Below are positions 1 through 15,998 of a stretch of 27,553 nucleotides of DNA, one piece after another. The notes beneath the pieces were generated by a model. That model did no database searches, was not told the origin of the DNA, and was given only the letters and a program-made list of their open reading frames with translations. The translations under genes and the position numbers were made by a program. Each line of letters opens with the position of its first letter. Positions within the stretch are counted from its first letter, which is position 1. The stretch is from a virus. The stretch spans positions 1-27,553 of IMG/VR virus record IMGVR_UViG_3300006332_000204; one strand, written 5' to 3'.

Positions 1-120
1 GGAGCACAACTCCGCGACCGGCAAACGCCGACTTTTCAGGTTCGCCGGGACTATGATGTGTTTACCCGCAAGCCCAAGAAAGCCAAGGGCAAGGGCTGGG
101 CCACCTTCCTGTCCCGCTAA
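1..120 (+). CDS. Probable terminase large subunit, C-terminal end (partial)
   Basis: An open frame enters from the left edge and stops with TAA at 118-120, leaving 39 residues. The visible end is basic (KPKKAKGKGW near the terminus). The function is inferred from position only: in T7- and BPP-1-type podoviruses the terminase large subunit, the ATPase/nuclease that packages DNA, commonly lies just upstream of the portal block. No ATPase or nuclease motif can be seen in this fragment. The stop codon is embedded in the first copy of the AATGTGCGTTGCG element. Confidence 0.45.
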   Translation, partial: GAQLRDRQTPTFQVRRDYDVFTRKPKKAKGKGWATFLSR

Positions 121-145
121 TGTGCGTTGCGGGGCTGTCCGCAAC
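119..145 (+). repeat. Late-region repeat element, copy 1, with hairpin
   Basis: AATGTGCGTTGCG at 119-131 is identical to 3536-3548 and 14610-14622. The last six bases of the element are part of a perfect 7-bp hairpin: arms 126-132 (GTTGCGG) and 139-145 (CCGCAAC), with a 6-base loop. With copy 3 the identity extends to 17 bases (115-131 versus 14606-14622). It lies between the upstream stop codon and the gp13-like gene. Confidence 0.7.
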
Positions 146-162
146 AGGCATTTGTGGCAGGC

Positions 163-636
163 ATGGATGAGTTGCGGGACACCACGCCTGAGCATCTTGA
201 TGCAATTTCCAAGAATGCGCGCAAGGCCGACGTTTTTGAGTGCTATTTCATAAATGGCGAGCCGTTTATCGACACGCTGAAAGACGCGCTGCGCGTGTCA
301 AGGCGCACGACAACCTGGCTCCATAACGGAACGCCAGCTGCTGTTTACGGCGTTTCCTCGATTGATCGTGATCGCGGTGTGCCGTGGCTCCTCGGCTCCA
401 AGCTTATGGACTCCTTTCTGGAGCCGGGGAGCATTCGTAACCAGAGCCGGTTCATGAAGCAGTCCCGTTGGGTGCTGGGGGGCTGGCAGGAAATGTACCG
501 GCATCTTGAAAACTATGTCTGGCAGGAAAACTCCAAAGCCGTTGCGTGGCTGCGTGCGCTTGGCTTCGAGGTTCATGACCCCCGGCCTTTCGGCAAGTTT
601 CGTGAGCCTTTTCACAAATTCACATGGAGCGAATGA
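163..636 (+). CDS. T7 gp13-like virion protein (DUF2833 type)
   Basis: This 157-residue protein resembles the T7 gp13 / DUF2833 family, which has a GNAT-like fold. In T7, gp13 is an internal virion or assembly protein. Recognition rests on the C-terminal half: a tryptophan- and tyrosine-rich segment followed by WLRALGFEV and a terminal PFGKFREPFHKF block, the usual ending of this family. The ATG at 163 is preferred over an upstream in-frame TTG at 127, because that TTG falls inside the repeat hairpin. No strong Shine-Dalgarno sequence is visible. It overlaps the next gene by 4 bases. The alternative is a general GNAT acetyltransferase, but position and ending favour the virion family. Confidence 0.7.
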   Translation: MDELRDTTPEHLDAISKNARKADVFECYFINGEPFIDTLKDALRVSRRTTTWLHNGTPAAVYGVSSIDRDRGVPWLLGSKLMDSFLEPGSIRNQSRFMKQSRWVLGGWQEMYRHLENYVWQENSKAVAWLRALGFEVHDPRPFGKFREPFHKFTWSE

Positions 637-884
637 TGTGCCTTCCCTCACCGCCTAAACCGTCGGGCCCCAGTGCCGAACAGATTGCCCGCCAGGAAGC
701 CATACAGAAAGCGCAGCTCGAGGACATCGAGCGCAAGGAATCCGAGCTGAAGGCGGAGGAAGAGCGTCGTGGAAAGCGTCTTGAGAACGCGCGTCTGGGC
801 TATGCCTCGCTGTTTACCAGCGGTGCAGGCGGCGGCGGCTTTGTCGATGAAGACGCAGAAAAACGCAAAACGCTTGGTGGCTGA
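633..884 (+). CDS. Small conserved phage protein, probable virion component
   Basis: This 83-residue protein begins MMCLPSPPKP and overlaps the preceding stop codon (ATGATG), with GGAG just upstream. The start could equally be 636. It is proline-rich at the N-terminus, then has a charged helix or coiled coil (about residues 15-55). It ends in a glycine-rich segment of the type LGYASLFTSG, then GGGGF, a pattern common in small proteins next to podovirus portals. Its function is not established. It sits 5 bases before the portal start, so it is probably co-translated with it. Confidence 0.6.
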   Translation: MMCLPSPPKPSGPSAEQIARQEAIQKAQLEDIERKESELKAEEERRGKRLENARLGYASLFTSGAGGGGFVDEDAEKRKTLGG

Positions 885-889
885 CGTTT

Positions 890-2470
890 ATGGTTGTTGA
901 AGCTCCACAATATCCCACCCCGTCCGGTGATCCTGCCGAGTTCTACATGCGGCGTTTCGAGCGTGCGCGTGCCATCCGCGAGAACTGGGTGTCCCTGTTC
1001 GAGGACTGCTACACCTATACGTTGCCTGCGCGTGAGAGCTTCTACATGGAAAGCGGCGGCAGCGATCGTACGGATCACATATTTGATGAAACTGCGGTTG
1101 TCGGCGTGCAGGAGTTTGCCTCGCGTCTGCAATCCGGGCTTGTGCCGACCTTTGCACGCTGGGCGGATCTCAAGGCAGGACAGGAAATTCCGGACAGGGC
1201 GCGTGAGGAAATCGACCGCAAGCTGTCCGAAGTCACCGAGTATATCTTCGAGATCCTGCAGAACTCCAATTTCAACCAGGAAGTTCATGAGAGCTTTATG
1301 GACCTGGCGGTCGGTACAGGCTGCCTGCTGGTCGAGGAAGGCGATGTAAACCACCCGATCCGGTTCAATGCGGTGCCCCTGCCCCATATCTATCTTGAGG
1401 CGGGGCCCGACGACCAGATCGAGGGCGTGTATCGCACACGCCGGATGCGGCATGAGGACATACAGCGCATGTGGCCCGGTGCGGAAATGCCTGCGTCCAT
1501 GCAGGCCCGTATCATGGCAAACAGCAATCAGCTGTGTAACCTCATTGAATGCACCGTGCGCAATACCGAGCGGCCCAACGAGGTTGCCTACGATTATCTT
1601 GTGATCTCGAAAGACGACAAGGCGATCATTTACCGCGAGGAGTTCAAGGGAACCGGCTCGTCGCCGTGGGTGGTTTTCCGCTGGTCCAAGGCCAGTGGCG
1701 AGATTTACGGTCGCGGCCCCGTGCTAAACGCACTTCCTGCGATCAAGACCACAAACCTGACCGTTGAGCTGATCCTTGAAAACGCCCAGCTTGCAATCTC
1801 GGGTATCTGGCAAGTTGATGACGACGGCACGGTCAATGCGGACACAATCAATCTGGTCCCCGGTACGGTTGTTCCACGGGCGCCCGGTTCTGCAGGCCTG
1901 ACACCCATAGCCCCGCCAGGGCGTTTTGACGTTGCCCAGCTCATCCTCGATGACATGCGGCTCAACATTCGCCGTGCGCTTTACAACGAGATGCTGGGTG
2001 ACCCGAACAAGACGCCCATGACAGCAACGGAAGTTGCGGAACGTATGGCGGACCTGTCGCGTCAGATCGGCAGTGCGTTTGGCCGCCTACAGGCAGAGCT
2101 GGTCCAGCCCCTGTTACAGCGCGTGATTTTCCTGCTGAAAAAGCGTGGCCTGATCGAGATCCCGCAGATTAATGGCCGTGAGATGCGGATCGCCGCAACC
2201 TCACCGCTTGCCCGCTCGCAGAAGCTGCAAGATGTCACGACAGTTGATCGCTTTGTGGAGCTGGTGGGTGCCCGCTTTGGCCCGCAAGCCCTGTCGCTTG
2301 CCGTCAAGCCCGAGGCTGCAGCGCAATACATGGCTGAACGACTGGGTGTGCCGCCTGAAATCCTGCGCACAGAGGTCGAGCGCCAGCAGATTGTCCAGTA
2401 CATGCAGCAGGCCGCTGCGAGCGCACAGCAGCAACAGATGCAACAGGCTCCGGCTGATGCCGCCGACTAA
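890..2470 (+). CDS. Portal protein (head-to-tail connector)
   Basis: This 526-residue protein matches the podovirus head-to-tail connector family (T7 gp8 type, usually 500-560 residues), which forms the dodecameric ring through which DNA is packaged and ejected. Supporting features are an N-terminal segment with RFERARAIRENW and YTLPAR, the internal YGRGPVLNALPAIKT segment characteristic of the family, and the later MTATEVAERM segment followed by helices. The C-terminal tail is rich in Q and A, as in many portals. The start at 890 follows the preceding gene closely. The gene overlaps the next one by 14 bases. Order before scaffold and capsid fits the assignment. Confidence 0.93.
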   Translation: MVVEAPQYPTPSGDPAEFYMRRFERARAIRENWVSLFEDCYTYTLPARESFYMESGGSDRTDHIFDETAVVGVQEFASRLQSGLVPTFARWADLKAGQEIPDRAREEIDRKLSEVTEYIFEILQNSNFNQEVHESFMDLAVGTGCLLVEEGDVNHPIRFNAVPLPHIYLEAGPDDQIEGVYRTRRMRHEDIQRMWPGAEMPASMQARIMANSNQLCNLIECTVRNTERPNEVAYDYLVISKDDKAIIYREEFKGTGSSPWVVFRWSKASGEIYGRGPVLNALPAIKTTNLTVELILENAQLAISGIWQVDDDGTVNADTINLVPGTVVPRAPGSAGLTPIAPPGRFDVAQLILDDMRLNIRRALYNEMLGDPNKTPMTATEVAERMADLSRQIGSAFGRLQAELVQPLLQRVIFLLKKRGLIEIPQINGREMRIAATSPLARSQKLQDVTTVDRFVELVGARFGPQALSLAVKPEAAAQYMAERLGVPPEILRTEVERQQIVQYMQQAAASAQQQQMQQAPADAAD

Positions 2471-2714
2471 ACGCCCGCCCAGTGCGGATGGTGTTCTGCG
2501 TAGTGCAGACGCTGAACGGGATCTCAATTCGCTGTTTGCCGCCGTGTTTGACGGCTCCAACGGCGACAAGGCGCTTTCCTATCTACGAAGTATTTCCATC
2601 GAACAGGTATGTGGGCCAGAGGCGGTATCAGAGCGCCTGCTGCACCTTGAGGGGATGCGCTATCTGGCAGCAATCATTGAAAACCGTGTGAAAAGGGGTC
2701 GCGAACATGAGTGA
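2457..2714 (+). CDS. Small Bbp19-like phage protein
   Basis: An 85-residue reading frame starts with ATG at 2457 inside the end of the portal gene and ends 8 bases into the scaffold gene. It fills what would otherwise be a 236-base gap. After a basic, proline-containing start it has a helical segment (DLNSLFAAVFDGSNGDKALS) and a second helix (LEGMRYLAAIIENR). This pattern, a phenylalanine and glycine followed by a leucine-rich repeat-like half, is seen in small proteins between portal and scaffold of BPP-1-type podoviruses (Bbp19-like). Its role is unknown, possibly head assembly. Overlaps on both sides suggest translational coupling. Confidence 0.7.
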   Translation: MPPTKRPPSADGVLRSADAERDLNSLFAAVFDGSNGDKALSYLRSISIEQVCGPEAVSERLLHLEGMRYLAAIIENRVKRGREHE

Positions 2715-3465
2715 CGAACAAGCCAGTGCGGCAAGTGAGGGAAGTGAAGGGGCAAACGTTTCTGGTGAGCCGACCGGGGCCGAACGTCCCGAAGGTGTAC
2801 CGGAAAAATTTTGGGATTCTGAAAATGCTCAAATCGATTCAGGACGGCTTTTGCAGTCTTACAAGGAGCTTGAAAGCTATAACGGTAAACGTATGGAGGA
2901 GCTGCGTGCCTCTGTCGCTGAGGAATATGTGCAGACGCGCATGGCGGATCGTCCGTCCAGTATGGATGATTACGAGGTGCGTGGTGATGGTCCCGTGGCT
3001 GACGCTCTGGAGAATGTTGACGCTGACGACCCGCTGCTTGGCTGGTGGCGTGAAACGGCTTTTGAAGCGGGGCTAAGCCAGAGCCAGTTTGAGGCCGGTC
3101 TGAGCGCCTATGTTTCACGGCGGATGGCGGAAATGCCCAATCCGGTCGAGGAAATGGCCGAGCTTGGCGACAATGCGCGTGTGCGTGTAGACGCCGTTGA
3201 AGTCTGGTCGCGACAGAATTTGCCAGCCGAGCTCTACCCGATGGTAGCGCAGATGTGCGGAACGGCTAATGGCGTCAAGGTCATGGAGCAGCTGATCGAT
3301 CGCACAACGCCGGTCAATATGGCAGCGGTTACGGGCTCGATTGCCGAGCAGGCCCCGACCAAGGGCGACATTCGCGACATGATGAATGATCCCCGTTACT
3401 GGGATCCGAACGAGCGCGACAAGTATGTGAAAGAGGTTGAGCGGCTTGTGAGCCGAGTGCGCTGA
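2707..3465 (+). CDS. Scaffolding protein
   Basis: This 252-residue acidic protein lies directly upstream of the major capsid gene, the normal position of the procapsid scaffold. The N-terminal 35 residues are low-complexity S/E/G/P. The segment PEKFWDSENAQIDSGRLLQS then KELE (about residues 32-55) is the classic scaffold signature, where a cargo-like PEKFW is followed by a LLQSYKELE helix. The C-terminal third is charged and contains the MNDPRYW motif typical of the family's capsid-binding end. The start at 2707 overlaps the preceding gene and follows AAAAGG. It probably co-assembles with the capsid protein and leaves before or during packaging. Confidence 0.85.
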   Translation: MSDEQASAASEGSEGANVSGEPTGAERPEGVPEKFWDSENAQIDSGRLLQSYKELESYNGKRMEELRASVAEEYVQTRMADRPSSMDDYEVRGDGPVADALENVDADDPLLGWWRETAFEAGLSQSQFEAGLSAYVSRRMAEMPNPVEEMAELGDNARVRVDAVEVWSRQNLPAELYPMVAQMCGTANGVKVMEQLIDRTTPVNMAAVTGSIAEQAPTKGDIRDMMNDPRYWDPNERDKYVKEVERLVSRVR

Positions 3466-3535
3466 TATGACGGCGTGCCTTGTTTTCTGGGAGCCTGTGG
3501 TCCCTCCTGCCCTGGCTTCTTAAACTTGCGCATTC

Positions 3536-3548
3536 AATGTGCGTTGCG
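3536..3548 (+). repeat. Late-region repeat element, copy 2
   Basis: AATGTGCGTTGCG is identical to copies at 119 and 14610. It is the only recognisable landmark in the first part of the 208-base gap between scaffold and capsid genes (3466-3673). Its last bases form the 5' arm of the terminator-like hairpin that follows. I see no convincing gene in the gap. Confidence 0.7.
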
Positions 3549-3573
3549 CGGTTTTGTGCCGCGCTTTCTTTTT
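3546..3573 (+). terminator. Rho-independent terminator-like hairpin before the capsid gene
   Basis: GCGCGG (3546-3551) pairs perfectly with CCGCGC (3559-3564) around a 7-base loop and is followed by TTTCTTTTT (3565-3573). This is a canonical intrinsic terminator shape. It lies between the scaffold and capsid genes, so it would either attenuate upstream transcription or protect the 5' end of a capsid transcript. A leader of about 100 bases remains between it and the capsid start. Confidence 0.6.
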
Positions 3574-3673
3574 GCGGGTAGGCCCCGTTACGAATTTTGC
3601 CTGGCCCTCGGATAACCTTGCAAGCCAAGACGGGATAACCGGCTGACACCAACTTCTAACTTGTGAGGTAAAA

Positions 3674-4495
3674 ATGGCACTCGACATTTCCGATGCCTTT
3701 ATCACGCAGTTTGAGTCAGAGGTGCATGTCGCGTATCAGCGTATGGGCTCCAAGCTCCGTCCGTTGGGCCGCAACATCACCGGCGTCACCGGCTCGACTG
3801 CGCGGTTCCAGAAAGTGGGAACCGGCACAGCGGTAACGAAGGCACGAAACGCCGACGTTGCGGCTATGAATCTGACGCACTCGTCCGTTGATGTAACGCT
3901 GTCCGACTACTACGCAGCCGATTACATCGACCGTCTCGACGAGCTCAAGACCAACATCGATGAGCGACAGGTTGTTGCGCTCAACGCTGCTGCTGCTCTT
4001 GGCCGCAAGACGGATGAGCTGATCACCACCGCGCTCGACGGTACGTCGAACACGACGGCGCATGGCTCTGCGGGCATAAACACCACGAAAATCTTCGGGG
4101 TGTTTGAAAGCATGGGTGAGAACGACGTTCCTGATGACGGTCAGCGTTATTGGGTCGTGGCACCTGACCAATGGACTGAACTGCTGGCAATCACGGCTTT
4201 TGCTGACGCGGACTTTATTGGCTCCGACGACCTTCCCTACAAGGGCGGTATGACGGCCAAGCGTTGGCTGGGTTATGTCTGGATGGTTCATTCCGGCCTG
4301 CCCGACGACGGGTCCAGTAACCGTAAGACCTTCTGCTGGCACAAGTCCGGTATCGGCGTTGCGACCGGTGCGGACATCGCCACGGAAGTAAATTACGTGC
4401 CGGAAAAAGTCTCTAACCTTGTTACTTCAATGCTCTCGCAGGGTGCCGTCCTAATCGACGACAATGCGGTCTTTGAAGTGCAGTGCTCGGAATAG
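3674..4495 (+). CDS. Major capsid protein
   Basis: This 273-residue protein is recognised as a phage coat protein from its position after the scaffold and its content. The N-terminus contains FITQFESEVHVAYQ and a loop with GSTARFQKVG. The middle has AALGRKTDELITTALDG. The second half has RYWVVAPDQWTELL and RWLGYVWMVHSGLP. These are conserved segments of the HK97-fold capsid proteins of marine and alphaproteobacterial podoviruses. The ATG at 3674 follows GAGG with suitable spacing. The protein is predicted to form the icosahedral shell. It is preceded by a long leader holding a repeat element and a hairpin, unlike most genes here, which suggests dedicated high expression. Confidence 0.9.
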   Translation: MALDISDAFITQFESEVHVAYQRMGSKLRPLGRNITGVTGSTARFQKVGTGTAVTKARNADVAAMNLTHSSVDVTLSDYYAADYIDRLDELKTNIDERQVVALNAAAALGRKTDELITTALDGTSNTTAHGSAGINTTKIFGVFESMGENDVPDDGQRYWVVAPDQWTELLAITAFADADFIGSDDLPYKGGMTAKRWLGYVWMVHSGLPDDGSSNRKTFCWHKSGIGVATGADIATEVNYVPEKVSNLVTSMLSQGAVLIDDNAVFEVQCSE

Positions 4496-4504
4496 GAGGG
4501 AATA

Positions 4505-4750
4505 ATGGCTCTTTCTTCTAGCGATCTGCACAAGGTCGGCGGCGGCAACAAGCAGCTCTTCCTATATGAGTCTGCCGATGCTGTCGGGACTATTGCCGGA
4601 AGCGGTTACTTCAATGACGTAACCAACCAGCTCAACCAGGATGATGTGATCATCGCGGTTGGCGCAACCGGCGGTACACGCACCGTGGACGTTCTCGTTG
4701 TTACGAGCGCGTCGGGTGCGGCGACTGTTACTTGCACTAACGGTACTTAA
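4505..4750 (+). CDS. Small capsid accessory protein (possible decoration protein)
   Basis: An 81-residue protein starts 9 bases after the capsid stop with a near-perfect AGGAGG ribosome site, implying strong translation. The sequence is glycine-, alanine- and threonine-rich and predicted to be mostly beta structure, with little charge. It resembles small proteins encoded just downstream of capsid genes that decorate the shell or form head fibres. No specific family is recognised, so the function rests on position and composition. Confidence 0.6.
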   Translation: MALSSSDLHKVGGGNKQLFLYESADAVGTIAGSGYFNDVTNQLNQDDVIIAVGATGGTRTVDVLVVTSASGAATVTCTNGT

Positions 4751-4756
4751 CGGGAG

Positions 4757-4778
4757 AGGGAGGGGGAAACCCCTCCCT
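4757..4778 (+). promoter_or_regulatory. Strong GAAA-tetraloop hairpin just before the tail tubular A start
   Basis: GGGAGGGG (4758-4765) pairs with CCCCTCCC (4770-4777) around a GAAA loop; A4757-T4778 extends it to 9 bp. There is no T-run after it, so it is a poor intrinsic terminator. It lies 7 bases upstream of the TTG start of the next gene. It sequesters the only purine-rich stretch that could act as a ribosome site, so it may limit translation of the tail gene or mark an mRNA end. Confidence 0.5.
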
Positions 4779-4785
4779 TGACCTC

Positions 4786-5406
4786 TTGGCGACACCGACA
4801 GCTCCTACTTCAAATATCGACATCTGCGCCCGGGCCCTTGTGCTCGTCGGCGCAAACCCGATTACGTCCTTCGAGGACGGAACCACCGAGGCAATGATTA
4901 CCTCGAACCTGTACGAAGATATCGTGCGGGCTGACCTCAGCTCATGCCGCTGGCGGTTTGCCGTCAAGCAGGCCGTGTTAAACCGGCTGGTTGATGCGCC
5001 GACGGGGCGCTGGGATGCAGCTTACCAGCTGCCATCCGATCTCCTGATCGTGAATGCGGTCACGATTGCCGACAAGGCAGTCGATTACGACGTTTACGGC
5101 GACAACATCTACGTTGATGCAGGCGAGGATGAAACGCTTGTTATCGACTACACCTACCGCGCCGAGGAGTCTGACTGGCCCCCGCATTTTGTTTTGCTGG
5201 TCGAGTACCACATGGCGAGCATTCTGGCGGCCTCACTGGCGCGTGATGCCGGTCTCGCAGACCTTATGAACAGCCAGTACAGCATCCAGAATTTGCGAGC
5301 GCGCAATATCGACGCCCAGCAGCAGACAACGCGCAGGCTGACCGTCAACAGATTCCTCGAGGGTACTGGCCGGAGATCAACACGCGGTTCAAGGCGAGCA
5401 CGCTAA
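4786..5406 (+). CDS. Tail tubular protein A (gatekeeper/adaptor)
   Basis: This 206-residue protein resembles T7 gp11 (196 residues), which binds the portal and carries the nozzle. The N-terminal segment IDICARALVLVGANPITSF followed by an acidic DGTTEA block is the hallmark of the family. DAAYQLPSDLLIVNAV and WPPHFVLLVEYHMASILA follow in the expected places. The start is TTG at 4786: no in-frame ATG lies upstream, and the family motif begins about ten residues in. Its stop overlaps the start of tail tubular B. The strong hairpin upstream and the rare start codon suggest reduced translation compared with the capsid genes. Confidence 0.87.
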   Translation: MATPTAPTSNIDICARALVLVGANPITSFEDGTTEAMITSNLYEDIVRADLSSCRWRFAVKQAVLNRLVDAPTGRWDAAYQLPSDLLIVNAVTIADKAVDYDVYGDNIYVDAGEDETLVIDYTYRAEESDWPPHFVLLVEYHMASILAASLARDAGLADLMNSQYSIQNLRARNIDAQQQTTRRLTVNRFLEGTGRRSTRGSRRAR

Positions 5407-7574
5407 TGCCGACCTACCGCCTTGAAAAAACAAACTTTCAAGCTGGCGAACTGGACCCGAACTTTCATTCGCGTTCCGATCTGAAGCTGTATGACGAGGG
5501 CGCAAAACAGGTTCAAAACTTCTACCTGATGCTGACCGGGGGCGTTATGCGCCGTCCCGGCACGACCTATCTTGCCAACCTTGGCGCAGCATCACGTATC
5601 GAGCCGTTTCTGTTTTCCGGCGATGAGCGTCATATCGTGGCGTTTCAGGCGAGCGGAGCGAAGATCTACGGCATTGACGGCACCTTGCAGGCAACCCTGA
5701 CCGGTGCGCCGTGGGGTGCGGACGACCTGTTCGAGCTCAACATTACCCAGGCCGGTGATGTAATGATTGTTGCGCATCGCGACTATCAGCCGACCCAGAT
5801 CACCCGCACCGGGGCAACCAGCTTTACACGCGCAGACTATGCCTTCGAGGGCGACAGCAGTACGACCCACAAGCGCCCGTTCTTCAAATATGCCGACGCC
5901 GCTGTAACCCTGACCCCTTCAGGTACGAGCGGCTCGATTACGCTGACGGCAAGCGCAGACACCTGGGAAACATCGCATAACGGGACAATTCTCGAATACA
6001 CAGACACCGCCGGGACCGTGCGGCAAATGGAGCTGGGCACCCGCGTTTCGGCTACCGTCATAAATGCCACGGTCCTGTATTCCGCAACATTGCCCAACAC
6101 CACAGCGGTCAAGACATGGCGTGAGCAAATGTATTCGGCTGTTCGCGGCTGGCCGGGTGCGGTTGAATTCCACGACAACCGACTATGGTTTGGCGGTAAC
6201 AGCCAGCGTCCCGGTGGCCTTGTCGGCTCGCAGTCCGGCGCTTTTTACAACTTCGAGCTCGATGATGGTGACGATGATGAGGGTATCGACATCACGATTG
6301 CCGGCTCGAGCGTCAACGAAATCCGCCATCTTGTCTCCACACGGCGGCTTGAGATCCTGACCGACACGGGCGAGTTCTACATTTCAGACAGTGATGTGCG
6401 GGCGATTACGCCGGGCAATGTTTCCGTGCGTCGCCAGACAACCTTTGGATCGAGCCGCACGCCGCCAGTGTTTTTTGATGGGCAAACGGTGTTTGTGCAG
6501 CGTTCCGGGCAAAACTTGCGTGCCTATGCCTACGACTTTGTGCGCGACACCTATGCTTCTGACCTGTTGAGCGTAAAGGCGTCCCATTTGGTGCTGTCAC
6601 CTCGTCAGATTGCCAGCACTTTCGGCTCTGACACACGCCCTGAACAATACCTGTTGTTTGTAAACAGCAACGGCACGCTGACCTACATGCACTCAATCCG
6701 CGAGCAGGAGGTCCAGGGCTTTGCCCAGTGGTCAACGCGCACGAACGACACGTTTGAAAGCGCGTGCGGGGTTGCAGAGGATGTGTTTGTCGTTGCCAAA
6801 CGCACGTTGAACAGCTCGACGGTGTACGCGCTCGAGCTTCTTGCCGACGATGATTCCGTTACGCTTGATTGCTCGCTTGCAGGCACACGTTCGCAGTACG
6901 GCACGCCGCTTGTCGATGGGGCAAGCCAGAGCGGCACAACGCTTAACATTGATGGGCTGACATCGACGCCGTCTGCGGGCGACCAGTTCACGATTGCGGG
7001 CGTAACCGGCACCTACACTATCGACCGCCTGACCTATACCAGTGGTGATGCAGCACTTGTGTTGACCAGTGCGCTTGCCAGCTCGCCCGCGGACAATGCG
7101 GTGATTACCTTTACCACCGGGCATCTGTACACGGGGTTCAGCCATTTGGCGAACGAGACCGTGCATGTGGTTTCCGGCAATCTGTATCTCGGAACGGAGA
7201 CTGTTTCAGGCTCGGGCACCATAACAATCGACTATACCGGGCTGAGTGCGGTTCGAGCCGGGTTTACCTACACACCGACGTTGGAAACCATGCCGGTCGT
7301 GTTCCAGAGCCAGCGTGGCAACCTTAATGGCGTTGTGCGTCGCGTGACGCGCTGTCTTGTCGATATTACGGGTGCGTATGACATCAAGGTCGAGGGCAAC
7401 CAGCTGGCTGTTCGACAGGTCAATGACGATATGAGCCTGCCGTTGCAGGCACAGGCCGGTCATTACGAGTTTCCGGTTATGGGATATTCGCGCGAGCCCA
7501 CGATCACCTTGACCCAGACAGACCCATTGCCCCTGCGCGTTCTGGGCATGGGCGTAGAAGTGAGGTCTTACTGA
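5406..7574 (+). CDS. Tail tubular protein B (nozzle)
   Basis: This 722-residue protein is the homologue of T7 gp12 (794 residues), which forms the hexameric tail nozzle. It begins LEKTNFQAGELDPNFHSRSD and then has a stretch with VQNFYLMLTGGVMRRPGT, the typical start of the family. FHDNRLWFGG (about residues 257-266), a second diagnostic motif, lies in the propeller region, followed by SGAFYNFE. The second half is beta-rich with many repeats of T, S and G. It starts at the A of the preceding stop codon and overlaps the next gene by one base. Confidence 0.92.
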   Translation: MPTYRLEKTNFQAGELDPNFHSRSDLKLYDEGAKQVQNFYLMLTGGVMRRPGTTYLANLGAASRIEPFLFSGDERHIVAFQASGAKIYGIDGTLQATLTGAPWGADDLFELNITQAGDVMIVAHRDYQPTQITRTGATSFTRADYAFEGDSSTTHKRPFFKYADAAVTLTPSGTSGSITLTASADTWETSHNGTILEYTDTAGTVRQMELGTRVSATVINATVLYSATLPNTTAVKTWREQMYSAVRGWPGAVEFHDNRLWFGGNSQRPGGLVGSQSGAFYNFELDDGDDDEGIDITIAGSSVNEIRHLVSTRRLEILTDTGEFYISDSDVRAITPGNVSVRRQTTFGSSRTPPVFFDGQTVFVQRSGQNLRAYAYDFVRDTYASDLLSVKASHLVLSPRQIASTFGSDTRPEQYLLFVNSNGTLTYMHSIREQEVQGFAQWSTRTNDTFESACGVAEDVFVVAKRTLNSSTVYALELLADDDSVTLDCSLAGTRSQYGTPLVDGASQSGTTLNIDGLTSTPSAGDQFTIAGVTGTYTIDRLTYTSGDAALVLTSALASSPADNAVITFTTGHLYTGFSHLANETVHVVSGNLYLGTETVSGSGTITIDYTGLSAVRAGFTYTPTLETMPVVFQSQRGNLNGVVRRVTRCLVDITGAYDIKVEGNQLAVRQVNDDMSLPLQAQAGHYEFPVMGYSREPTITLTQTDPLPLRVLGMGVEVRSY

Positions 7575-8269
7575 TGTGTGGTCCTGCTGCTCCTGCTGCC
7601 GGGATGATGGCTCCCAGTGTTGTTGCCGCGCCTGCTGCTGCCGGTGCGCTGTCGGCTGCTGGCCCTGGCATGATGGCCGTAGGAACATCAGCGGCAGTGG
7701 CGGGCCCGGGACTGATGGCAACTGCCCCTCTGGCCGCGACTTCCGGACCAATGATGCTGGCTCCGCTTGGCGCTTCGTTTACGTCTGCGGCCCCGATCGC
7801 ATCGACCTTTGGCTTTGCCGGGATCAAAAGCCTGATCTCGGACGCAGCCGATGTTATGGATATCGTATCGCCGGTTGCGTCTGGCATTACAAACCTCAGA
7901 ACCGCAAAAACGTTGGCAGAAATGGGCCGGATGCAGGCGGACTCGCAACGCATCACCATGAACCAGCAGATACTTGACCGACGTATGCTCGAGCTTGAGC
8001 GCCGTGAAAAGGCCAATGCAGAGCTTGCAAGCATGATTGCGGGGGGACAGCCCGGGCAGTCTCTCGTTGCGCTGACACAAAAGAAACTCGACGATAACGA
8101 GAGATCCCGTCAATTCAGCGAGACGGCAGTTGGGGCTATTGGAATTACCGGGCGAACCAGAATTGCAACAACACAAGGCAAAACAAAAACAGCTGTAGAT
8201 GCCGCTTTGAAAGAAGCGGGTAAAGATCTTGGCCAGGCAACCGGGTTCCTGCGCGAAAGGTTTGCCTGA
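7574..8269 (+). CDS. Internal virion protein, T7 gp14-like by position
   Basis: This 231-residue protein begins MCGPAAPAAGMMAPS. It has a long hydrophobic, A/G/M-rich N-terminal half (about residues 1-85) able to insert into membrane, then a charged coiled-coil segment (about residues 105-165, including LDRRMLELERREKANAELAS). This layout and the position right after the nozzle gene match the gp14-type ejection protein, which leaves the head first and forms a pore in the outer membrane. Sequence identity to gp14 itself cannot be judged by eye. It overlaps both neighbours by one base. Confidence 0.7.
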   Translation: MCGPAAPAAGMMAPSVVAAPAAAGALSAAGPGMMAVGTSAAVAGPGLMATAPLAATSGPMMLAPLGASFTSAAPIASTFGFAGIKSLISDAADVMDIVSPVASGITNLRTAKTLAEMGRMQADSQRITMNQQILDRRMLELERREKANAELASMIAGGQPGQSLVALTQKKLDDNERSRQFSETAVGAIGITGRTRIATTQGKTKTAVDAALKEAGKDLGQATGFLRERFA

Positions 8270-10191
8270 TGGTTTCCGGTTTTTTTTCAGGATTTGTTTC
8301 AGGTGCAGCGCCCTCTTTTAGGCGAGCACAGGAAGCAGAGGACGAGCGCAAGCTAAACACTCTCCTGTTGCAGTCCTCGGAGGCCTATATTGCGGAAAAA
8401 GATCGGCTGCTGAACCTTGCCGATGACGAGGATTGGGCACCCAATAAAGTGGATCAGCAGCTCGACACGCTGCTCGAGCGCAGTCTGGCCGTTCCCGATC
8501 TTGATGACTGGCGCAGGCAACGTCTTACAAATGACCTGAACAACAGAAATCGTGCGGGTAAAAACGGCTACAGAAACAGGTATGAAGGCAAGGTTGACGC
8601 TGTAGAGGAAGCGCAATACGCGCTCGAGCTGACGCAAGGCTTTCAGGCTATAGACGCCCGGGCAAGGGGCGGTGGCGCTCCGGCAGACGAGTTCAGCGGT
8701 GCAGCGCCGCAACCTTTCAGCATTTCGCCTGCGGATGTCATGACGCAATACGCCGATTATCTGGCGGGTACGCTTGACGAGCTGAACGCAGACCCGAGCC
8801 TTGAGGCTCAGGAAAAGGTTTTGAAGCGGCAGCTGACCGCGCAAAAAGCCATCAAAACCATTCATGACGGCTACAAGCGGGACTACAACAAATATCACAA
8901 TGACCTACGTGATGCGCTCATTGCGCAAACCGTAGAGCAGTCCAGAATCCGTGTTGAGGAAGCGGTCCGTGGTGTTTTTACGCATCTGGGTATGCCGGTA
9001 AGCGAGGATGACCCAGCGGCAAAAGCGGCAATGGACCCAGGCTCTATTGTTGCAGCCCTTGATTACGACAACATTCGCCAGCTCGCGGAAACGCGAGGAA
9101 AGACCTACTTCGATGTCGTTGACAAAGATGGGCTGCAGGAAGTTCTTGGCTCGCTGTTGGCAGTCAAGTTTTTGCAGACAAAGGGACCTGAAGAGGCTGA
9201 TACAGATTCTGTTTTCTGGAGATCATGGGTTCGCGAGCTTGAAAACACGCAGAATGACAAACAGTTAAGCGCAGTTTTTTCAGACGTTTTGGGCTCGGAA
9301 ACAGCCGAGTTTGTAAAAACGAATGCCTCGGAAATTATTAACCAGGCACGCAAGGCAGTAAATGTGCAGCGCCCAACGCGAGCTATTCTGGAGCAGGATC
9401 ACAGACAACGAGAAACAAACGCTAAGGAGACCACGGACGCCTTGCTCGGAGGAATGCGTGCGGCTTCCTTGTTTGACGAGGAAGCAGCCATATTTCGGCA
9501 AACCTTCGATGCTGCGTTTGAGCCAGGTGTTGGCGATGATGGTGATATGCGCTGGCTTGATGTGCTGAACGGGCAAATGGAAGAACTTGCAGCACAAGGC
9601 GTGTTTGGTCCGCAAACAGAGTTTGGCGACCAGGCGATTTTTAATGAAAACACCAAAGCAAACGCGACAAAGATTTACGATTACGTTGGCGACAGGGTTC
9701 AGCGGACACTGAACGTATTGAACCAGCCGGGCTATGCCACCGAAAACCTGGCAACACTCACAGAACCAGAAGACCGCAATATCATTCTGCGCGATGTCGT
9801 TCGACAGGTTGCGCCTGAGTTTAACGATCAAAACAATTATTTTGTGCAGGACGACAAGCTGTCTGACACGGCAGGGAACGCCTTAACCGGGTTTGCCCAG
9901 ACGCGGGGATTCGTTCCGCCTGCCTATATCGATTTTGTTGAGCGCGAAATCGAGAACTACAGGCAACAGGAGCGCGGGGGTGAGTTCAGGGGAGACACGC
10001 AGGAAACTGCGGACAAGGCGCGACTGAACCCCGTGCGAATGCACCTGAACAGCATCTTGAACTCAAAGATTTTTGTGGTGTTGCCGATAAATCAGCGCAC
10101 GAAACTCAACGATCTTATAGATGCTCTCAACGAGATACGCGACCCTCGCGCTTCCGAAGCGCCTCGTCCTAACAGTGCGAGAGGGGAATGA
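8269..10191 (+). CDS. Internal virion protein, gp15-like by position
   Basis: This 640-residue, highly charged and largely helical protein follows the gp14-like gene, where T7 encodes gp15 (747 residues), a soluble component of the periplasmic ejection tube. An N-terminal segment (about residues 20-110) is helical with many D, E, R and Q residues, and helical segments continue to the end. No enzymatic motif is seen. The start codon overlaps the preceding stop (TGATG). The assignment rests on order, size and composition. Confidence 0.65.
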   Translation: MVSGFFSGFVSGAAPSFRRAQEAEDERKLNTLLLQSSEAYIAEKDRLLNLADDEDWAPNKVDQQLDTLLERSLAVPDLDDWRRQRLTNDLNNRNRAGKNGYRNRYEGKVDAVEEAQYALELTQGFQAIDARARGGGAPADEFSGAAPQPFSISPADVMTQYADYLAGTLDELNADPSLEAQEKVLKRQLTAQKAIKTIHDGYKRDYNKYHNDLRDALIAQTVEQSRIRVEEAVRGVFTHLGMPVSEDDPAAKAAMDPGSIVAALDYDNIRQLAETRGKTYFDVVDKDGLQEVLGSLLAVKFLQTKGPEEADTDSVFWRSWVRELENTQNDKQLSAVFSDVLGSETAEFVKTNASEIINQARKAVNVQRPTRAILEQDHRQRETNAKETTDALLGGMRAASLFDEEAAIFRQTFDAAFEPGVGDDGDMRWLDVLNGQMEELAAQGVFGPQTEFGDQAIFNENTKANATKIYDYVGDRVQRTLNVLNQPGYATENLATLTEPEDRNIILRDVVRQVAPEFNDQNNYFVQDDKLSDTAGNALTGFAQTRGFVPPAYIDFVEREIENYRQQERGGEFRGDTQETADKARLNPVRMHLNSILNSKIFVVLPINQRTKLNDLIDALNEIRDPRASEAPRPNSARGE

Positions 10192-11372
10192 TGGACGACG
10201 AGCTCAAGACAAGCATTATCTCGGCAATACGAACCCTCGATGACGATGCCTATCGGGCGTGGTTTGGCACGAAGCCGCCGCGCATGTTTGCGCGACTTGC
10301 CTCGCAAGTTGGCTTTGGTTCGCGTGTTCTGGATCTCGAGGAACTGCCAAGCCAGTTTTTTGACGATGTCAGCTTCTACATGGGATCCAACGCTGACACC
10401 GACAACATCCTGCAAAGCGTTCGCGCGACATTGAATGAGGGCTGGTACGTCACGGACCTTGCGGATTATGCCGGGGCTGACGGAACGCGCGGCCTGCGTT
10501 TTGTCAAAGGTCCGGCAGATGGGGGTATGGGCGACATTGACGACAGTTTCGCCCGGTTCATGTTGTCGCAGCTGGAGGTTCGTGACTTGCCGCTGGACAT
10601 GATGGGTCCGCAGACAATGACGTTAAACCGCAATCTGCTTGAGCGTAATCCTGCTGATCCAGAGGTTTCGTTTGGTGATGATCCGCCATACCTGTCTCCC
10701 CGCACGATCTCGCAGATTATTGACGAGGGAAACTGGCGCGTAGAAGAAACCGGTAACGGCAAGATTAACTTCTACTACCAGGTTGATGGTGTTGAGTTTG
10801 CCTATCCATCTTCCCGCCTTGTGCCCAATCCTGACGATCTGCGCCTGTCGGTAATGCACACCCCGCGCGGTCGGGGGATTGAACTGCCCGGCCCTGTTGC
10901 TCAAACACGGGAGTTTGGCAAATCCGGTTTTCCTGCGCTTGATGACGGCCATCGAAAGCAAGCGATTGATGATGGCGTTAAAAGATTGATGTCCTTTAAC
11001 CCGCGCCCCTTGCGCGACACGCCTGAAAACTGGAGGCAAATGGAAGAGGACTTAAAGGGTTTTGTTACCAACCAGTTTGACAGGCAAGAGCTAAACCGCG
11101 AGATACAAAACGGAAATCGCGACATATCGTTTTGGCAGTGGGTCAGGGGCAATCTTGCTCTTGCGTCCGGTGTTCCTGGCGTTGGTGATATGGATGCAGC
11201 AATGGATGTGTCTGCAGCGGGTCAGCCGGGGCCTCTGACAACACCAGACGATCTGCGACAGGCTGAGTTTCTGCAGCATCAAATAAAGATTATCAACGAA
11301 GAGCGCGCGGCTATGGGCTTTGAGCCGACAAGCTTGCCCGAGATCGAGGCGGCACGCCGAGGCGCAGACTGA
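10188..11372 (+). CDS. Virion-associated protein between two ejection proteins
   Basis: This 394-residue protein of unknown family begins 4 bases inside the preceding gene; GAGGGG lies just upstream, and starts at 10188 or 10191 are both possible. It is acidic and soluble, with no signal peptide, membrane segment or enzyme motif that I can identify. Being embedded between the gp15-like and the large gp16-like genes, it is probably a fourth internal virion or ejection component. T7 has only three such proteins, so this phage family appears to have an extra one. Confidence 0.6.
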   Translation: MMDDELKTSIISAIRTLDDDAYRAWFGTKPPRMFARLASQVGFGSRVLDLEELPSQFFDDVSFYMGSNADTDNILQSVRATLNEGWYVTDLADYAGADGTRGLRFVKGPADGGMGDIDDSFARFMLSQLEVRDLPLDMMGPQTMTLNRNLLERNPADPEVSFGDDPPYLSPRTISQIIDEGNWRVEETGNGKINFYYQVDGVEFAYPSSRLVPNPDDLRLSVMHTPRGRGIELPGPVAQTREFGKSGFPALDDGHRKQAIDDGVKRLMSFNPRPLRDTPENWRQMEEDLKGFVTNQFDRQELNREIQNGNRDISFWQWVRGNLALASGVPGVGDMDAAMDVSAAGQPGPLTTPDDLRQAEFLQHQIKIINEERAAMGFEPTSLPEIEAARRGAD

Positions 11373-14300
11373 TGGCTTCAGAAACCTTAACTGAAGCCGA
11401 GCTTGCCCAGTTTAATCCTGCTTTAGAGCCTCCAACAGAGCCTGAGTCTGCTCAATTTAATCCTTTGCTGCAGCCAAGCGGGTACACGTCATCGGCAACG
11501 CCCAAGCGCCCCGGTTTTGAGCCGTCATTTGAGGACACACGCACAGGCCCGGCAGCGTTCAGGCGTGCGTTCCAGCAGGAAAATCTTATTTCACTGCTGG
11601 CTGGAGGTGCGGAAGACAATCGCCTTGCTGACTTGTATGCCATTACCGAGGCTGCAGGCAGGAAGATAGATCCCGGCTACAACGTAGAAGAGGACCCCCG
11701 GCTTCAAAATCTAGAGCCGGGAGAAATTGCGTTTTTCATACACAGCAACTCTTTTGACCACACCACTGCAATGCTCGCAGAGCGGCGTGCGCAGGATCGT
11801 TTGGACAGGCAGGACCGTCAGGACTCCGGTGCAATTATAGCCGGTACAGTTGCGGGCGCTGTTCTAGACCCCTCCCTGCTATTGCTGCCGACAGTGCGTG
11901 GTGCCACCAGGCTGCAATCGGTGCGCAATATGTCGGCTTTGCTGGGAACTGAAGAAGCCGTAAAGCAGGCGTTGGATGGCACGCGCCCGGATTCGTATCT
12001 TGCTTATGCTCTGGGTGCGGGGACCATTGTTGGCTTGTTGAGCAAGGCGCGCCAGCCGCTACGTACAATTACAGACCAGGAAGTACAGGAGATTGAGTCT
12101 CGCGCTGTTGCGCGATTACTCGACGATGAGCAGCAAGTTACCGGGGCTCGCATAGAAGCGGCACAGGCGCGTCGCGCTGGAAGCGTCGGCGCACGCGAAA
12201 CGCCTACCGGACAGGTTATTTCTGATGTTGATGACATTCGGGCAAACCGCCCGGCACCGGCACCCGGTGGCCTCGAGCGGCTAAACATGAACCCGATCAT
12301 GGTTTTGCTAAACGAGCAGAACCCAAAACTTGCGGCAATCACGCAGCGTGTTGTGTTGGGGGCCTTGGAGATCCCGTTTTACTTGCGCGGAAATATGCAA
12401 AAGACCGCACTTGCAACGCCAGGCGAGAACGCGGAAGGCTTGCTACGCGCAGGGCGCGGTGCCGTGGTTGAGACAACGCAAGTGATCCGCACTAACTACA
12501 ACGCCTACGTACAGTCTGTAACAGGAAAACAACCGGGACGGTTCAGCGTAGCTTTTGGCAGGCGTCCTGCTGACGGAGTTTTGACTTATCGCGAGTTTGG
12601 CCGGGAAATCAGCCGTGCCCTGCTCGATGAGGGCAGGCACGCAATTCCCCAGGTTGCAGCAGCTGCGCAGCGCACACGGCGTTTTTACGATGACATTTGG
12701 GAAAACGGGCAGAAATCTGGTGTCTGGGAGGGCGTCGCTATCAGTGAGCTGCGTGCGATCGATGAAGCCATATCGCGCCTTGCTGCAATTACTAAAAGAG
12801 GCCGCAAGCTCAGCCCTGAGCAAACCAAGCGAATGGCAGGACTGCGCAACAGTAAGGCGCAAAAGGAAGCGCAGCTCGAGCGCATCCGTACTGGCAACGC
12901 AGGCGGTAAACGTAAAAATTACCTGAATGTTGTCTATCGTCGGGACTACTGGCGACAAAACAAGGAACGCCTGATTGGCGTGATTATGCGCGAAGGTGGC
13001 CATGAGCGTCAGGTTGCCGAGGAAATCTTTGACCAGATAACCCGTAGCGTTCCGTATCGCGGCAATCCGTTTATGCGGGTTGCCCAGCAACGCACGCTGA
13101 ACATTGATCCTGTCAAGTTTATGGACGACGCCGCTGGCGATGCGATTGAGACAGATATTTTTACGCTGATGCGGATGTACCAGCGTTCAACAGACGCTGA
13201 CATCGGCCTTTACAAGAACTTTGGCTCGCTCGACCTGGCTGACGAGATACAGGCTGTTCGAGACGTTTTCAAAACCATGCCTGTAAACGCGGCAAACCAG
13301 CGCAAGATGGAGGCGATGATCCAGCGTATCGAAGCGGTACGCGATCTTGTTCGTGGCACGTATGGCCTGCCTGCAGATCCCGCAAACGTGACATCTCGCG
13401 CAATACGTATGTCGAAGAACTATGCGGCATTGACCCTGCTGACAGGCCCGCTTGCAGCAGCCCCTGATGTTGCACGTTCAATGATGGTCAACGGCATAAG
13501 CAATACGTTCCGCTCAGCACTTGAACCTCTCTTCAATAACGTTGGCCAGTTCAAGGCCAGCAAACGAACCCTGAACGCTGTTGGCGAAGCAGCTGACATG
13601 ATCCTGGCGTCACAAGCGGCGCGCGTGACAGACCTTGGCGATTATGTGGGCGTGTTTACCGGCTTCGAGCGCAAGCTCGAGCGCGGCACAAACTTCTATT
13701 TCAATTACATCAATGGAATGAATTTGTGGACGGACACCATGAAGACCTTGAATGGCATGGTGAGTCAGACGCAGTTGCTGCGTGGCATCGAGGAGATAGC
13801 CACAAAGGGCAAAACAAGTAAGAAAATAACAGCGCGGCTTGCCAAGCTGGGCATCGATGCGCCGATGGCCAATCGCATTCATGCGCAAAACGCCAGCTGG
13901 GAGCGCACCAAGCACAACATTATCGCGCACACGGATGAATGGTCCGATGATGTCGCACGTGAAACATTTGAACGTGCAATAGGCACTGACGCCCGGTTCA
14001 CAATTATTACGCCGGGGCTCGGTGATGCGCCGCTGTTTGCAACGGACATTCGGGCAATCAAGGGAATGCCGGATTGGGTATCGCCTGAAATCGGTAGCCT
14101 GTTATTCCAGTTCAAGAAGTTTGGCCTGAGTGCCCACCAGAAGGTGTTGCTGGCAGGCTTGCAGGGCGAGAAACGTGATGCGGTTATGGGTATGGTCGCA
14201 ATGGTCGGGCTTGGCGCAGTGGTTGATTATGTGCGCTCAACACAGACGAATGCGCCGGGATACAACACCCGCAACTTTACGCAGAAGCTGTACGGCGCTG

Positions 14301-14611
14301 TTGAGCGAGCGGGCATTGTTGCTCCGTTTCTTGATGTCTCGAACCACACAGAAGCTTTAACCCACGCGATGCTGGGAGCTCCGGTCGGAGTTAAGCCTGT
14401 GCTCGGGATCCAGCAGCGTTATGACCCGACAATGCGGCAGATCATCGGCAACGCCGTCGGGCCAGCTGCCGTAAACTATGTAAACCTTCTGGATTTTCTC
14501 ACGACCAGCAGTGACATGGTGGAAGCGCGACGCCTACGAGAGCTGGCTTTTGCCAACCGTCTCGCGCACCTCGACTGGTTTTGGGACGACGTAGAGCGCG
14601 GGTTGCGCTAA
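11372..14611 (+). CDS. Large internal virion protein (gp16-like position)
   Basis: This 1079-residue protein is the largest in the window and occupies the place of T7 gp16 (1318 residues), the inner-membrane part of the ejection channel. A hydrophobic stretch with glycine spacing (about residues 153-175, AIIAGTVAGAVLDPSLLLLP) could span a membrane, and another weakly hydrophobic area lies near residues 685-705. The N-terminus contains a duplicated AQFNP motif (AELAQFNPAL and ESAQFNPLL, about residues 10-34). I do not see the transglycosylase motif found at the T7 gp16 N-terminus, so wall degradation during entry may be done otherwise or not at all. The rest is helical and charged. Confidence 0.75.
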   Translation: MASETLTEAELAQFNPALEPPTEPESAQFNPLLQPSGYTSSATPKRPGFEPSFEDTRTGPAAFRRAFQQENLISLLAGGAEDNRLADLYAITEAAGRKIDPGYNVEEDPRLQNLEPGEIAFFIHSNSFDHTTAMLAERRAQDRLDRQDRQDSGAIIAGTVAGAVLDPSLLLLPTVRGATRLQSVRNMSALLGTEEAVKQALDGTRPDSYLAYALGAGTIVGLLSKARQPLRTITDQEVQEIESRAVARLLDDEQQVTGARIEAAQARRAGSVGARETPTGQVISDVDDIRANRPAPAPGGLERLNMNPIMVLLNEQNPKLAAITQRVVLGALEIPFYLRGNMQKTALATPGENAEGLLRAGRGAVVETTQVIRTNYNAYVQSVTGKQPGRFSVAFGRRPADGVLTYREFGREISRALLDEGRHAIPQVAAAAQRTRRFYDDIWENGQKSGVWEGVAISELRAIDEAISRLAAITKRGRKLSPEQTKRMAGLRNSKAQKEAQLERIRTGNAGGKRKNYLNVVYRRDYWRQNKERLIGVIMREGGHERQVAEEIFDQITRSVPYRGNPFMRVAQQRTLNIDPVKFMDDAAGDAIETDIFTLMRMYQRSTDADIGLYKNFGSLDLADEIQAVRDVFKTMPVNAANQRKMEAMIQRIEAVRDLVRGTYGLPADPANVTSRAIRMSKNYAALTLLTGPLAAAPDVARSMMVNGISNTFRSALEPLFNNVGQFKASKRTLNAVGEAADMILASQAARVTDLGDYVGVFTGFERKLERGTNFYFNYINGMNLWTDTMKTLNGMVSQTQLLRGIEEIATKGKTSKKITARLAKLGIDAPMANRIHAQNASWERTKHNIIAHTDEWSDDVARETFERAIGTDARFTIITPGLGDAPLFATDIRAIKGMPDWVSPEIGSLLFQFKKFGLSAHQKVLLAGLQGEKRDAVMGMVAMVGLGAVVDYVRSTQTNAPGYNTRNFTQKLYGAVERAGIVAPFLDVSNHTEALTHAMLGAPVGVKPVLGIQQRYDPTMRQIIGNAVGPAAVNYVNLLDFLTTSSDMVEARRLRELAFANRLAHLDWFWDDVERGLR

Positions 14612-14636
14612 TGTGCGTTGCGACGTTTAGGCGTCG
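14610..14636 (+). repeat. Late-region repeat element, copy 3, with hairpin
   Basis: AATGTGCGTTGCG at 14610-14622 overlaps the stop codon of the upstream gene exactly as copy 1 does. It runs into a hairpin of CGACG (14621-14625) and CGTCG (14632-14636) with a 6-base loop, extendable by two G-T pairs. It precedes the tail fibre gene, which lacks an obvious ribosome site. Confidence 0.7.
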
Positions 14637-14651
14637 TGCGTTCATTGCAGT

Positions 14652-15998
14652 ATGACTATCTCTGACACTACACCGCGCGTGCAATACACCGTGGGCAGCG
14701 GTGGGCAAACTGCGTTCACTGTTAGCTTTCAGTTCTTTGCCGTCACTGATCTTGCCGTTTACAACGGCACCACCAAACTGACCTACGCGGCGTCGCCGTC
14801 CGGTGCAACTCAGTATTCTGTTGCCGGTGCAGGGGCTTCTTCCGGTGGCACTGTGACGCTTGGCGCTGCTGTTGCCAGCACGACGGTAACCATTGTGCGC
14901 GACGTGCCTGTTGCACGTTCTACGGATTTCCCGCCCAGCGGACCTTTCCAGATCGGCTCATTGAACGACGAGCTCGACAAGTTTACGGCAATGATCAAGG
15001 AGCGCGAGGACGATATTGGTCGTTCGGTTGCAGCTCCTGACACCGATCCAACGTCGATTGATATGACCTTGCCGGTCAAGGCGGACCGTCTTGGCAAGTT
15101 GCTGGGCTTTGATTCCAGCACCGGCAATCCTGAAGCAACCACTGGTCGCATTTTGAGCGTGTCTGCGTCTGATGTTGCGGCGGGTGGTTCGGCAACCGTT
15201 TCGTATAATGATGCGACGGGCGCGCTGGCCCTTGGAATACCAACAGGAGCCACAGGCGCAACGGGCGCTGGCATCGATGTGCTTACGACGCGCGGCGACA
15301 TTGTTGTGCGCAACGCCTCGAACGCAACCGCACGGCTTGCAGCTGGTTCAGCAAATACGGTTCTGAAAAGTGATGGGTCTGACGTTGCCTACGGTCAGGT
15401 AGCAACTGCCATGATCGCGGATGACGCGGTTAGCCTTGCCAAGATGGCAAGCGGCACGGACGGCAACCTCATCAGCTACGATACAAGTGGAAATCCGGTA
15501 GCAGTGGCCACGGGATCGTCGGGCCAGGTGTTGACCTCAAACGGGGCTGGCGCTGCGCCAACGTTCCAGACCGCGTCTGGCGGTGGTGGCAAAGTCCTAC
15601 AGGTCGTAACGGCGGCTACCTCTACAGAGGCAACCACGACATCGGGCACCTACGCTGACACGAATTTGACGGCGGACATTACCCCGGCTAACACCGCCAA
15701 CAAGATTCTCGTTCTGGTGTCGCAATCAATAAGCAGCACAGGCGGACGCGCTGGCGGTGCGCTGCGAATTGTTCGGGGTAGCACTGAGATCGAGGAATAC
15801 AACCAGATCAGCAATGCCGAGAACCAGATGTCTCAGCATTTCATACAACACCTCGACAGCCCCAGCAGCACCTCGTCAACGACCTATCACACCGAGTTCA
15901 AGCGTATCGACCAAAGCGGCACGATTGCTGCCCAACGTAATGACAGTTCGGGGAACGCCACCTCAACCATCACTCTCATAGAGCTGGATTATTCCTAA
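14652..15998 (+). CDS. Tail fibre protein with T7-type N-terminal anchor
   Basis: This 448-residue protein starts like the T7 tail fibre anchoring domain: VQYTVGSGGQTAFTVSFQFF, then a beta-rich region and the helix LNDELDKFTAMIKEREDD (about residues 103-120), which is the conserved end of that domain and attaches to the tail. A collagen-like GIPTGATGATGAG (about residues 195-207) follows, then a short shaft and a C-terminal beta domain of about 130 residues ending TSTITLIELDYS that probably binds the receptor. It is shorter than T7 gp17 (553 residues). Host specificity should lie in the last third. No reverse transcriptase or variable-repeat arrangement accompanies it. Confidence 0.85.
   Translation: MTISDTTPRVQYTVGSGGQTAFTVSFQFFAVTDLAVYNGTTKLTYAASPSGATQYSVAGAGASSGGTVTLGAAVASTTVTIVRDVPVARSTDFPPSGPFQIGSLNDELDKFTAMIKEREDDIGRSVAAPDTDPTSIDMTLPVKADRLGKLLGFDSSTGNPEATTGRILSVSASDVAAGGSATVSYNDATGALALGIPTGATGATGAGIDVLTTRGDIVVRNASNATARLAAGSANTVLKSDGSDVAYGQVATAMIADDAVSLAKMASGTDGNLISYDTSGNPVAVATGSSGQVLTSNGAGAAPTFQTASGGGGKVLQVVTAATSTEATTTSGTYADTNLTADITPANTANKILVLVSQSISSTGGRAGGALRIVRGSTEIEEYNQISNAENQMSQHFIQHLDSPSSTSSTTYHTEFKRIDQSGTIAAQRNDSSGNATSTITLIELDYS

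Follow-up and report, generated by a model that had tools for sequence, protein, structure and literature searches.

A 13-base element, AATGTGCGTTGCG, stands at the head of three structural gene blocks in the window, by which we mean the whole stretch of DNA analysed here, an incomplete 27.6-kb IMG/VR fragment of a T7-like phage. Its core, TGTGCGTTG, is not a private repeat: it recurs at late-block heads in dozens of distantly related viruses. We propose, with a probability of roughly 0.6, that the element serves as the recognition sequence in a family of late promoters, at which the host RNA polymerase acts together with a putative factor. The proposal draws on the position and strand of the element, its conservation, constraint at the nucleotide level, a lineage-wide change of word, the TTGACA register at terS and the absence of a T7-type RNA polymerase gene. 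In the open-access literature, we found no report of this word as a phage element.

Three exact copies head structural gene blocks

An exact search of the window found AATGTGCGTTGCG three times on the plus strand and not once on the minus strand, in agreement with the initial annotation (Table 1). It is the only 13-mer with at least three plus-strand occurrences in the window, and none of 300 first-order Markov randomisations of the window gave a 13-mer present three times. When three mismatches are allowed, the window holds 14 matches with 14.1 expected by chance; the information thus lies in the exact copies alone. As had been described, copies 1 and 3 have 17 bases in common (CGCTAATGTGCGTTGCG) and each overlaps the TAA of the gene upstream, which for copy 1 is the TerL stop by homology.

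Protein comparison makes Pelagibacter phage EXVC031P Hodr the closest cultured relative of the window (portal 55%, major capsid protein [MCP] 59%). One relative, contig L011, joins the end of the window to its start and brings the missing terS and TerL genes. With these in place, copy 1 falls at the TerL stop, and the MCP and tail-fibre genes follow copies 2 and 3, respectively. Homology thus bears out the view that the copies head structural blocks, namely gp13-like/portal, MCP and tail fibre. Inspection of the sequence also found weak ribosome sites upstream of the starts at 163 and 14652, in line with the earlier remark that two of the following genes lack good ones.

Table 1. Features of the element and its surroundings, in window coordinates unless a contig is named
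Feature	Position	Strand	Remarks
Copy 1	119-131	+	Core at 121-129; overlaps TerL stop at 118-120
-35-like hexamer TTGCGG	127-132	+	Abuts TGTGCG; inferred by register with TGTGCG-TTGACA at terS
Candidate -10 ATTTGT	150-155	+	Inferred, weak; 17 bases past TTGCGG; gp13-like ATG at 163
gp13-like internal virion protein gene	163-636	+	PHROG 308, E 6e-35; headed by copy 1
Copy 2	3536-3548	+	Core at 3538-3546; MCP ATG 136 bases further on
Dyad GCGCGG-N7-CCGCGC	3546-3564	+	Terminator-like, 7 pairs; T-run at 3565-3573 (TTTCTTTTT)
MCP 5' leader	3575-3673	+	Repeated GGATAACC; conserved across lineages
MCP gene	3674-4495	+	59% identical to Hodr protein; headed by copy 2
Copy 3	14610-14622	+	Core at 14612-14620; overlaps stop at 14609-14611
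Candidate -10 TTCATT	14641-14646	+	17 bases past TTGCGA (14618-14623); 5 bases before ATG
Tail-fibre gene	14652-15998	+	PHROG 1640 tail protein, E 4e-21; headed by copy 3
DnaA domain-IV HTH protein, 177 aa	19762-20295	-	PF08299 at protein end, E 7e-11
Tyrosine integrase	21410-22540	-	
XRE-type HTH protein	26563-26841; L011:5482-5848	-	Candidate factor

The core is conserved in close and distant relatives

The initial annotation had named lack of conservation at these sites as one ground for refuting its reading. The element is conserved in relatives, so that ground falls away: all three sites are kept in close relatives (contigs with 68-87% nucleotide identity), and the core stands at the same heads in distant ones. 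Copy 1 is kept in L066, L011, L054, L015, L032 and L019, and with one mismatch in L093; the copy 2 13-mer is invariant in L091-L096, L066 and L012; and copy 3 is kept in L055, L012, L038, L020 and L085. Relatives that extend beyond the window have two more sites, one before terS (TGTGCGTTGACA) and one after it (AATGTGCGTTTC).

The core is also strongly oriented. In 80 MCP relatives, it lies 38 times on the coding strand versus twice on the other, and the reversed word does not occur. Across 295 related loci, many of them retrieved via TerL and tail-fibre proteins, the core is found 204 times on the coding strand versus 11 on the other, and the reversed word four times on each. In a gene-anchored set of 35 genomes, 44 of the 52 plus-strand cores are placed at late-block heads (TerL stop, 14; MCP, 15; tail fibre, 7; before terS, 8), as are none of the six minus-strand cores. 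A whole contig has 2-5 copies, which nearly always share a strand. Roughly 3.2-3.6 kb separate the copy at the TerL stop from the one at MCP, and the tail-fibre copy follows roughly 11-12.5 kb later. The distance from core to ATG in relatives is 133-155 bases at MCP and 40-56 bases at the tail fibre. In AT-rich phages, the core lies within the end of the upstream gene, where its translation is C-A-L, L-C-V-D or F-V-R-C; in other phages it overlaps a TAA or TAG stop. Because the core sits in genes in three reading frames, the constraint is on the nucleotides and not on a protein.

A sister word, AGTCCATTG, occupies the same four places in L118/G10, L119/G11, L123, L126/G12, L151 and L231, the last of which is a Novosphingobium MAG. 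The TerL stop of both L118 and L119 is formed by the TAG of TAGTCCATTG. Intermediate words (TGTGCATTG, AGTGCATTG and AGTGCGTTG) are found at the same sites in other relatives, and the word switches together at most sites of a given genome. A repeat search allowing one mismatch found no lineage word in Hodr, HTVC010P, Vibrio 1.257.O, MEP301 or SI2, nor in the genomes L099, L104, L112, L131, L146, L152 and L164. Among cultured phages, five genomes were examined in full, and the box is absent from all of them.

Co-evolution between a polymerase and its promoters typically leaves such a pattern: the element looks complete, stands at block heads and differs in word from lineage to lineage at all sites. 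Could the element then be the promoter of a phage-encoded RNA polymerase, as in T7? We consider this extremely improbable. The PF00940 profile found no T7-type RNA polymerase in any of 22 records, including the incomplete window, while the T7 positive control was recovered at E 1e-110. Furthermore, the early regions of G7 and G10 contain no unassigned large protein, and the 1079-aa protein matches the T7-gp16-like PHROG 342.

At terS, the box abuts a -35 hexamer

At the terS sites of the first lineage, TGTGC[GA] is followed immediately by TTGACA in 18 sequence clusters. In the sister lineage, CAGTCCA is followed by TTGACA (G10) and TAGTCCA by TTGACG (G12). It is at these terS sites (the 18 clusters plus G10 and G12) that a TTGACA-type -35 stands in register with the box; at sites other than terS, only the TTG of the -35 is kept. 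The box-less relatives Hodr, G18, G19 and G15 have ordinary TTGACA-N17/18-TATACT-type promoters before terS.

A de novo motif search downstream of the core returned GTGcTAtA at terS sites, which is extended -10-like with a spacer of 18-19, and a TG-n-TA-like motif with a spacer of 17-18 in 120 other clusters. The latter scored 0.93 per sequence versus 0.20 +/- 0.04 for shuffled sequences, a score reached by none of 200 shuffles; since the clusters share ancestry and are not independent, we regard this as supportive, not as proof. The window's own -10 candidates, ATTTGT, TCTTTT and TTCATT, are all poor, and a sigma70 promoter scan of the window found no promoter at the three sites. The candidate after copy 1 reads ATTT[GC]T across five aligned sequences; should translation begin at the TTG at 127, these bases may be coding as well. 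At copy 3, TTCATT is identical in the window, L055 and L012 though the spacer has diverged, and site 1 of L106, L145, L161 and L162 has ACCAAT at an equal distance (17 bases) behind four different spacers. A sigma70 -10 just upstream of the core was also considered and rejected, as there is no consistent TAnnnT.

Some sites have additional features. The terS promoters at L410:710, L346:655, L406:607 and L392:1077, among others, show two G-runs past the -10 (e.g., AGGGGGGGATTACAGGGGGGG), possibly an initiation-region signal. At L011:8690 and L066:1059, the core TGTGCGTTGACAAGC of the terS site has a partial second copy, TGTGCGTGAAACAAG, 48 bases before it. One lineage has a small palindrome of the TGCATTAATGCA type in the -35/-10 spacer of the TerL-stop site (seen at L334:2055, L351:2245, L315:3223 and L311:4603).

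Hairpins are not a defining part of the element

The initial annotation described a hairpin as part of each copy. Each window copy is indeed followed by a hairpin, but the folding z-scores are weak (-0.9, -1.5 and -0.2 for copies 1, 2 and 3), and the mean z-score after the core in relatives is about -0.5 in GC-rich and +0.4 in AT-rich phages. The sole hairpin kept in close relatives is that of copy 2 with its T-run, for which L091, L093 and L094 conserve the arms and differ in the loop. It is also the only one with the GC-rich stem and following T-run of an intrinsic terminator; it may act as a terminator or, lying between -35 and -10, as an operator dyad. We therefore reject the hairpin as a defining part: it is not conserved across lineages, and if the core is a -35, it falls in untranscribed spacer.

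This bears on what the element does. It had been read as a late promoter with a 5' mRNA hairpin, an RNA processing site or an antitermination signal. A conserved late control element at block heads holds up, and promoter is the best supported of the three functions; the 5' hairpin does not hold up, and the terminator-like dyad at copy 2 is all the positive evidence found for processing or antitermination. An element acting at the RNA level, as a 5' mRNA hairpin or processing site, would account for the hairpins past all three window copies. However, these are not conserved, the distance from core to start codon ranges from about 30 to 155 bases, and an Rfam covariance-model search of the window gave no match up to E 1, all of which makes this reading very improbable.

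Processive antitermination or pausing, in which the core, as DNA or nascent RNA, would load a phage antiterminator on the host RNA polymerase for readthrough of leader terminators such as that after copy 2, is in our view unlikely. Such a role would resemble that of lambda Q sites or of the GafZ element in the gene transfer agent of Caulobacter. It keeps some weight because the terminator-like hairpin and T-run lie directly past copy 2 and are kept in close relatives, and because terminator-like leaders are found upstream of MCP in chromosomal relatives in Micavibrio; GafYZ also provides a precedent in a phage-like late cluster (PMC11150451). However, copies 1 and 3 have no terminator downstream, hairpins are not general after the core, the core is not boxA-like, and its abutment to TTGACA at terS better fits initiation.

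The MCP leader holds GGCCC and two GGAYAACC words. Phages keep these whether or not they carry the box, and relatives in bacterial genomes keep them in part. There is no Rfam match, and we regard the leader as a candidate RNA element. T7-like MCP clusters (L232-L308) are present in about 12 Azospirillum species and many Micavibrio and other alphaproteobacterial genomes. About 24 of them have a TTGACA promoter with an AGGA..TCCT spacer dyad, then ATCAACGCC, a terminator-like leader and MCP. These clusters may be prophages or domesticated gene-transfer-agent-like clusters.

Candidate factors and the lack of an integrase in 15 other carriers

We found no gene family that is present in all box carriers and absent from the rest. 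The sigma70 region 4 profile (PF04545) had no match above the cut-off in 19 records; four of these gave sub-threshold matches (E 0.004-0.009), some to small HTH genes. The DnaA domain-IV gene of the window is also found in several relatives and in HTVC010P. We rejected its product as the cognate factor: six of the eight carriers in the first set have the gene, but it is found in only 2 of 21 further carriers versus 4 of 16 non-carriers. The XRE-type HTH gene is found in box carriers whose contig covers the region, yet also in six box-less genomes. In L011, a second small HTH protein (57 aa) lies beside it and has a weak, sub-threshold resemblance to sigma region 4. Both the XRE-type and the 57-aa protein are candidates for the factor. 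Of the two small early HTH genes weighed as the cognate factor, the XRE-type and the STYYR-type one, the latter has a patchy distribution, and neither was accepted.

The window also encodes a tyrosine integrase, which raises the question of whether the copies are stoperators, as in L5, at which a lysogeny repressor would block late transcription. The sites suit such a role in being short (13 bases), asymmetric, oriented with transcription, intergenic and overlapping stop codons. However, they are few, they occur at block heads only, and the element is fused to a -35. Moreover, among 16 carriers, only the window has an integrase; the PF00589 profile found none in the 15 other box-carrying contigs, several of which are 32-36 kb. 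Most carriers thus do not look temperate, and we consider repressor sites quite improbable. Altogether, the DnaA-like, sigma, antitermination and repressor readings are weakened.

A model for coordinated late transcription

In the host-polymerase promoter model, a lineage-specific hexamer (TGTGCG here and AGTCCA in the sister lineage) would sit immediately before a -35 hexamer of the form TTGnnn, and a weak extended -10 would follow some 17-19 bases after the -35. A putative factor, most likely phage-made, would bind the hexamer and let the host holoenzyme start all late blocks together: terS, gp13/portal, MCP and tail fibre. At copies 1 and 3, the predicted start of transcription coincides with the ATG (163 and 14652) or adjoins it, giving leaderless mRNAs or very short leaders, which would explain the missing ribosome sites. 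From the start predicted at copy 2, the MCP mRNA would have a leader of about 95 bases. We infer the use of the -10, the start sites, the factor and the temporal class. The poor -10 candidates of the window, the lack of a gene family that tracks with the box and the terminator-like dyad just past copy 2 speak against the model.

A broader version would have a single phage factor that redirects the host RNA polymerase to every late block in a large group of abundant marine T7-like phages through a box fused to the -35. Factor and box would have changed together repeatedly (TGTGCG, TGTGCA, AGTGCG, AGTGCA, AGTCCA), and late mRNAs would be leaderless at some blocks. This is conceivable, but we would lean against it at present. 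If true, the box would coordinate late transcription in these phages, which lack a polymerase of their own, as the T7 polymerase does for T7.

In the open-access literature, we found no explanation of late-gene timing in T7-like phages without their own RNA polymerase, and a pelagiphage transcriptome study (PMC12753301) contains no promoter analysis. Because the box predicts late-block heads in dozens of marine phage lineages, the question of late timing becomes testable. With the box, start sites can be predicted exactly, the factor can be sought with a bait sequence, and specificity can be tested on words that differ naturally between lineages.

Comparison with known systems

The control of alphaproteobacterial gene transfer agents by GafA and GafYZ (PMC9638019, PMC11150451) is similar in that a late phage-type cluster is transcribed by the host RNA polymerase with dedicated regulators, a weak -35 and a terminator near the start. 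In contrast, GafY binds far upstream with IHF (PMC9638019, PMC11150451), and in the present phages the distribution of the DnaA-like gene does not follow that of the box. T7-type late promoters (phi10 etc.) share with the element a single word repeated at late-block heads of a T7-like structural module and a word that changes between lineages. However, no phage RNA polymerase gene was found in the 22 records searched, and the architecture resembles a -35/-10 promoter.

The stoperators of mycobacteriophage L5 and the start-associated sequences of cluster K are likewise 13-base oriented elements in tight intergenic gaps; here, in contrast, there are 3-5 copies, at late-block heads, mostly in phages without an integrase. 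The boxA of a lambda-type nut site is a CGCTCTTT-type word. The element is not a boxA-boxB site of this kind, as its word differs from CGCTCTTT and hairpins are not general. We judge the resemblance of TGTGCGTTGACA to rrn boxA to be coincidental because conserved T residues are changed.

T4 middle promoters are activator dependent, with a MotA box at -35. As in those promoters, a short word would replace or overlap the -35, and several promoters would be co-regulated through the host RNA polymerase. The box differs from that of T4 in sequence and position, since here it abuts the TTG of the -35, and the phages and hosts are others. By its sequence architecture, rather than by membership in a named family, the element appears to resemble activator-dependent phage promoters with a box at -35.
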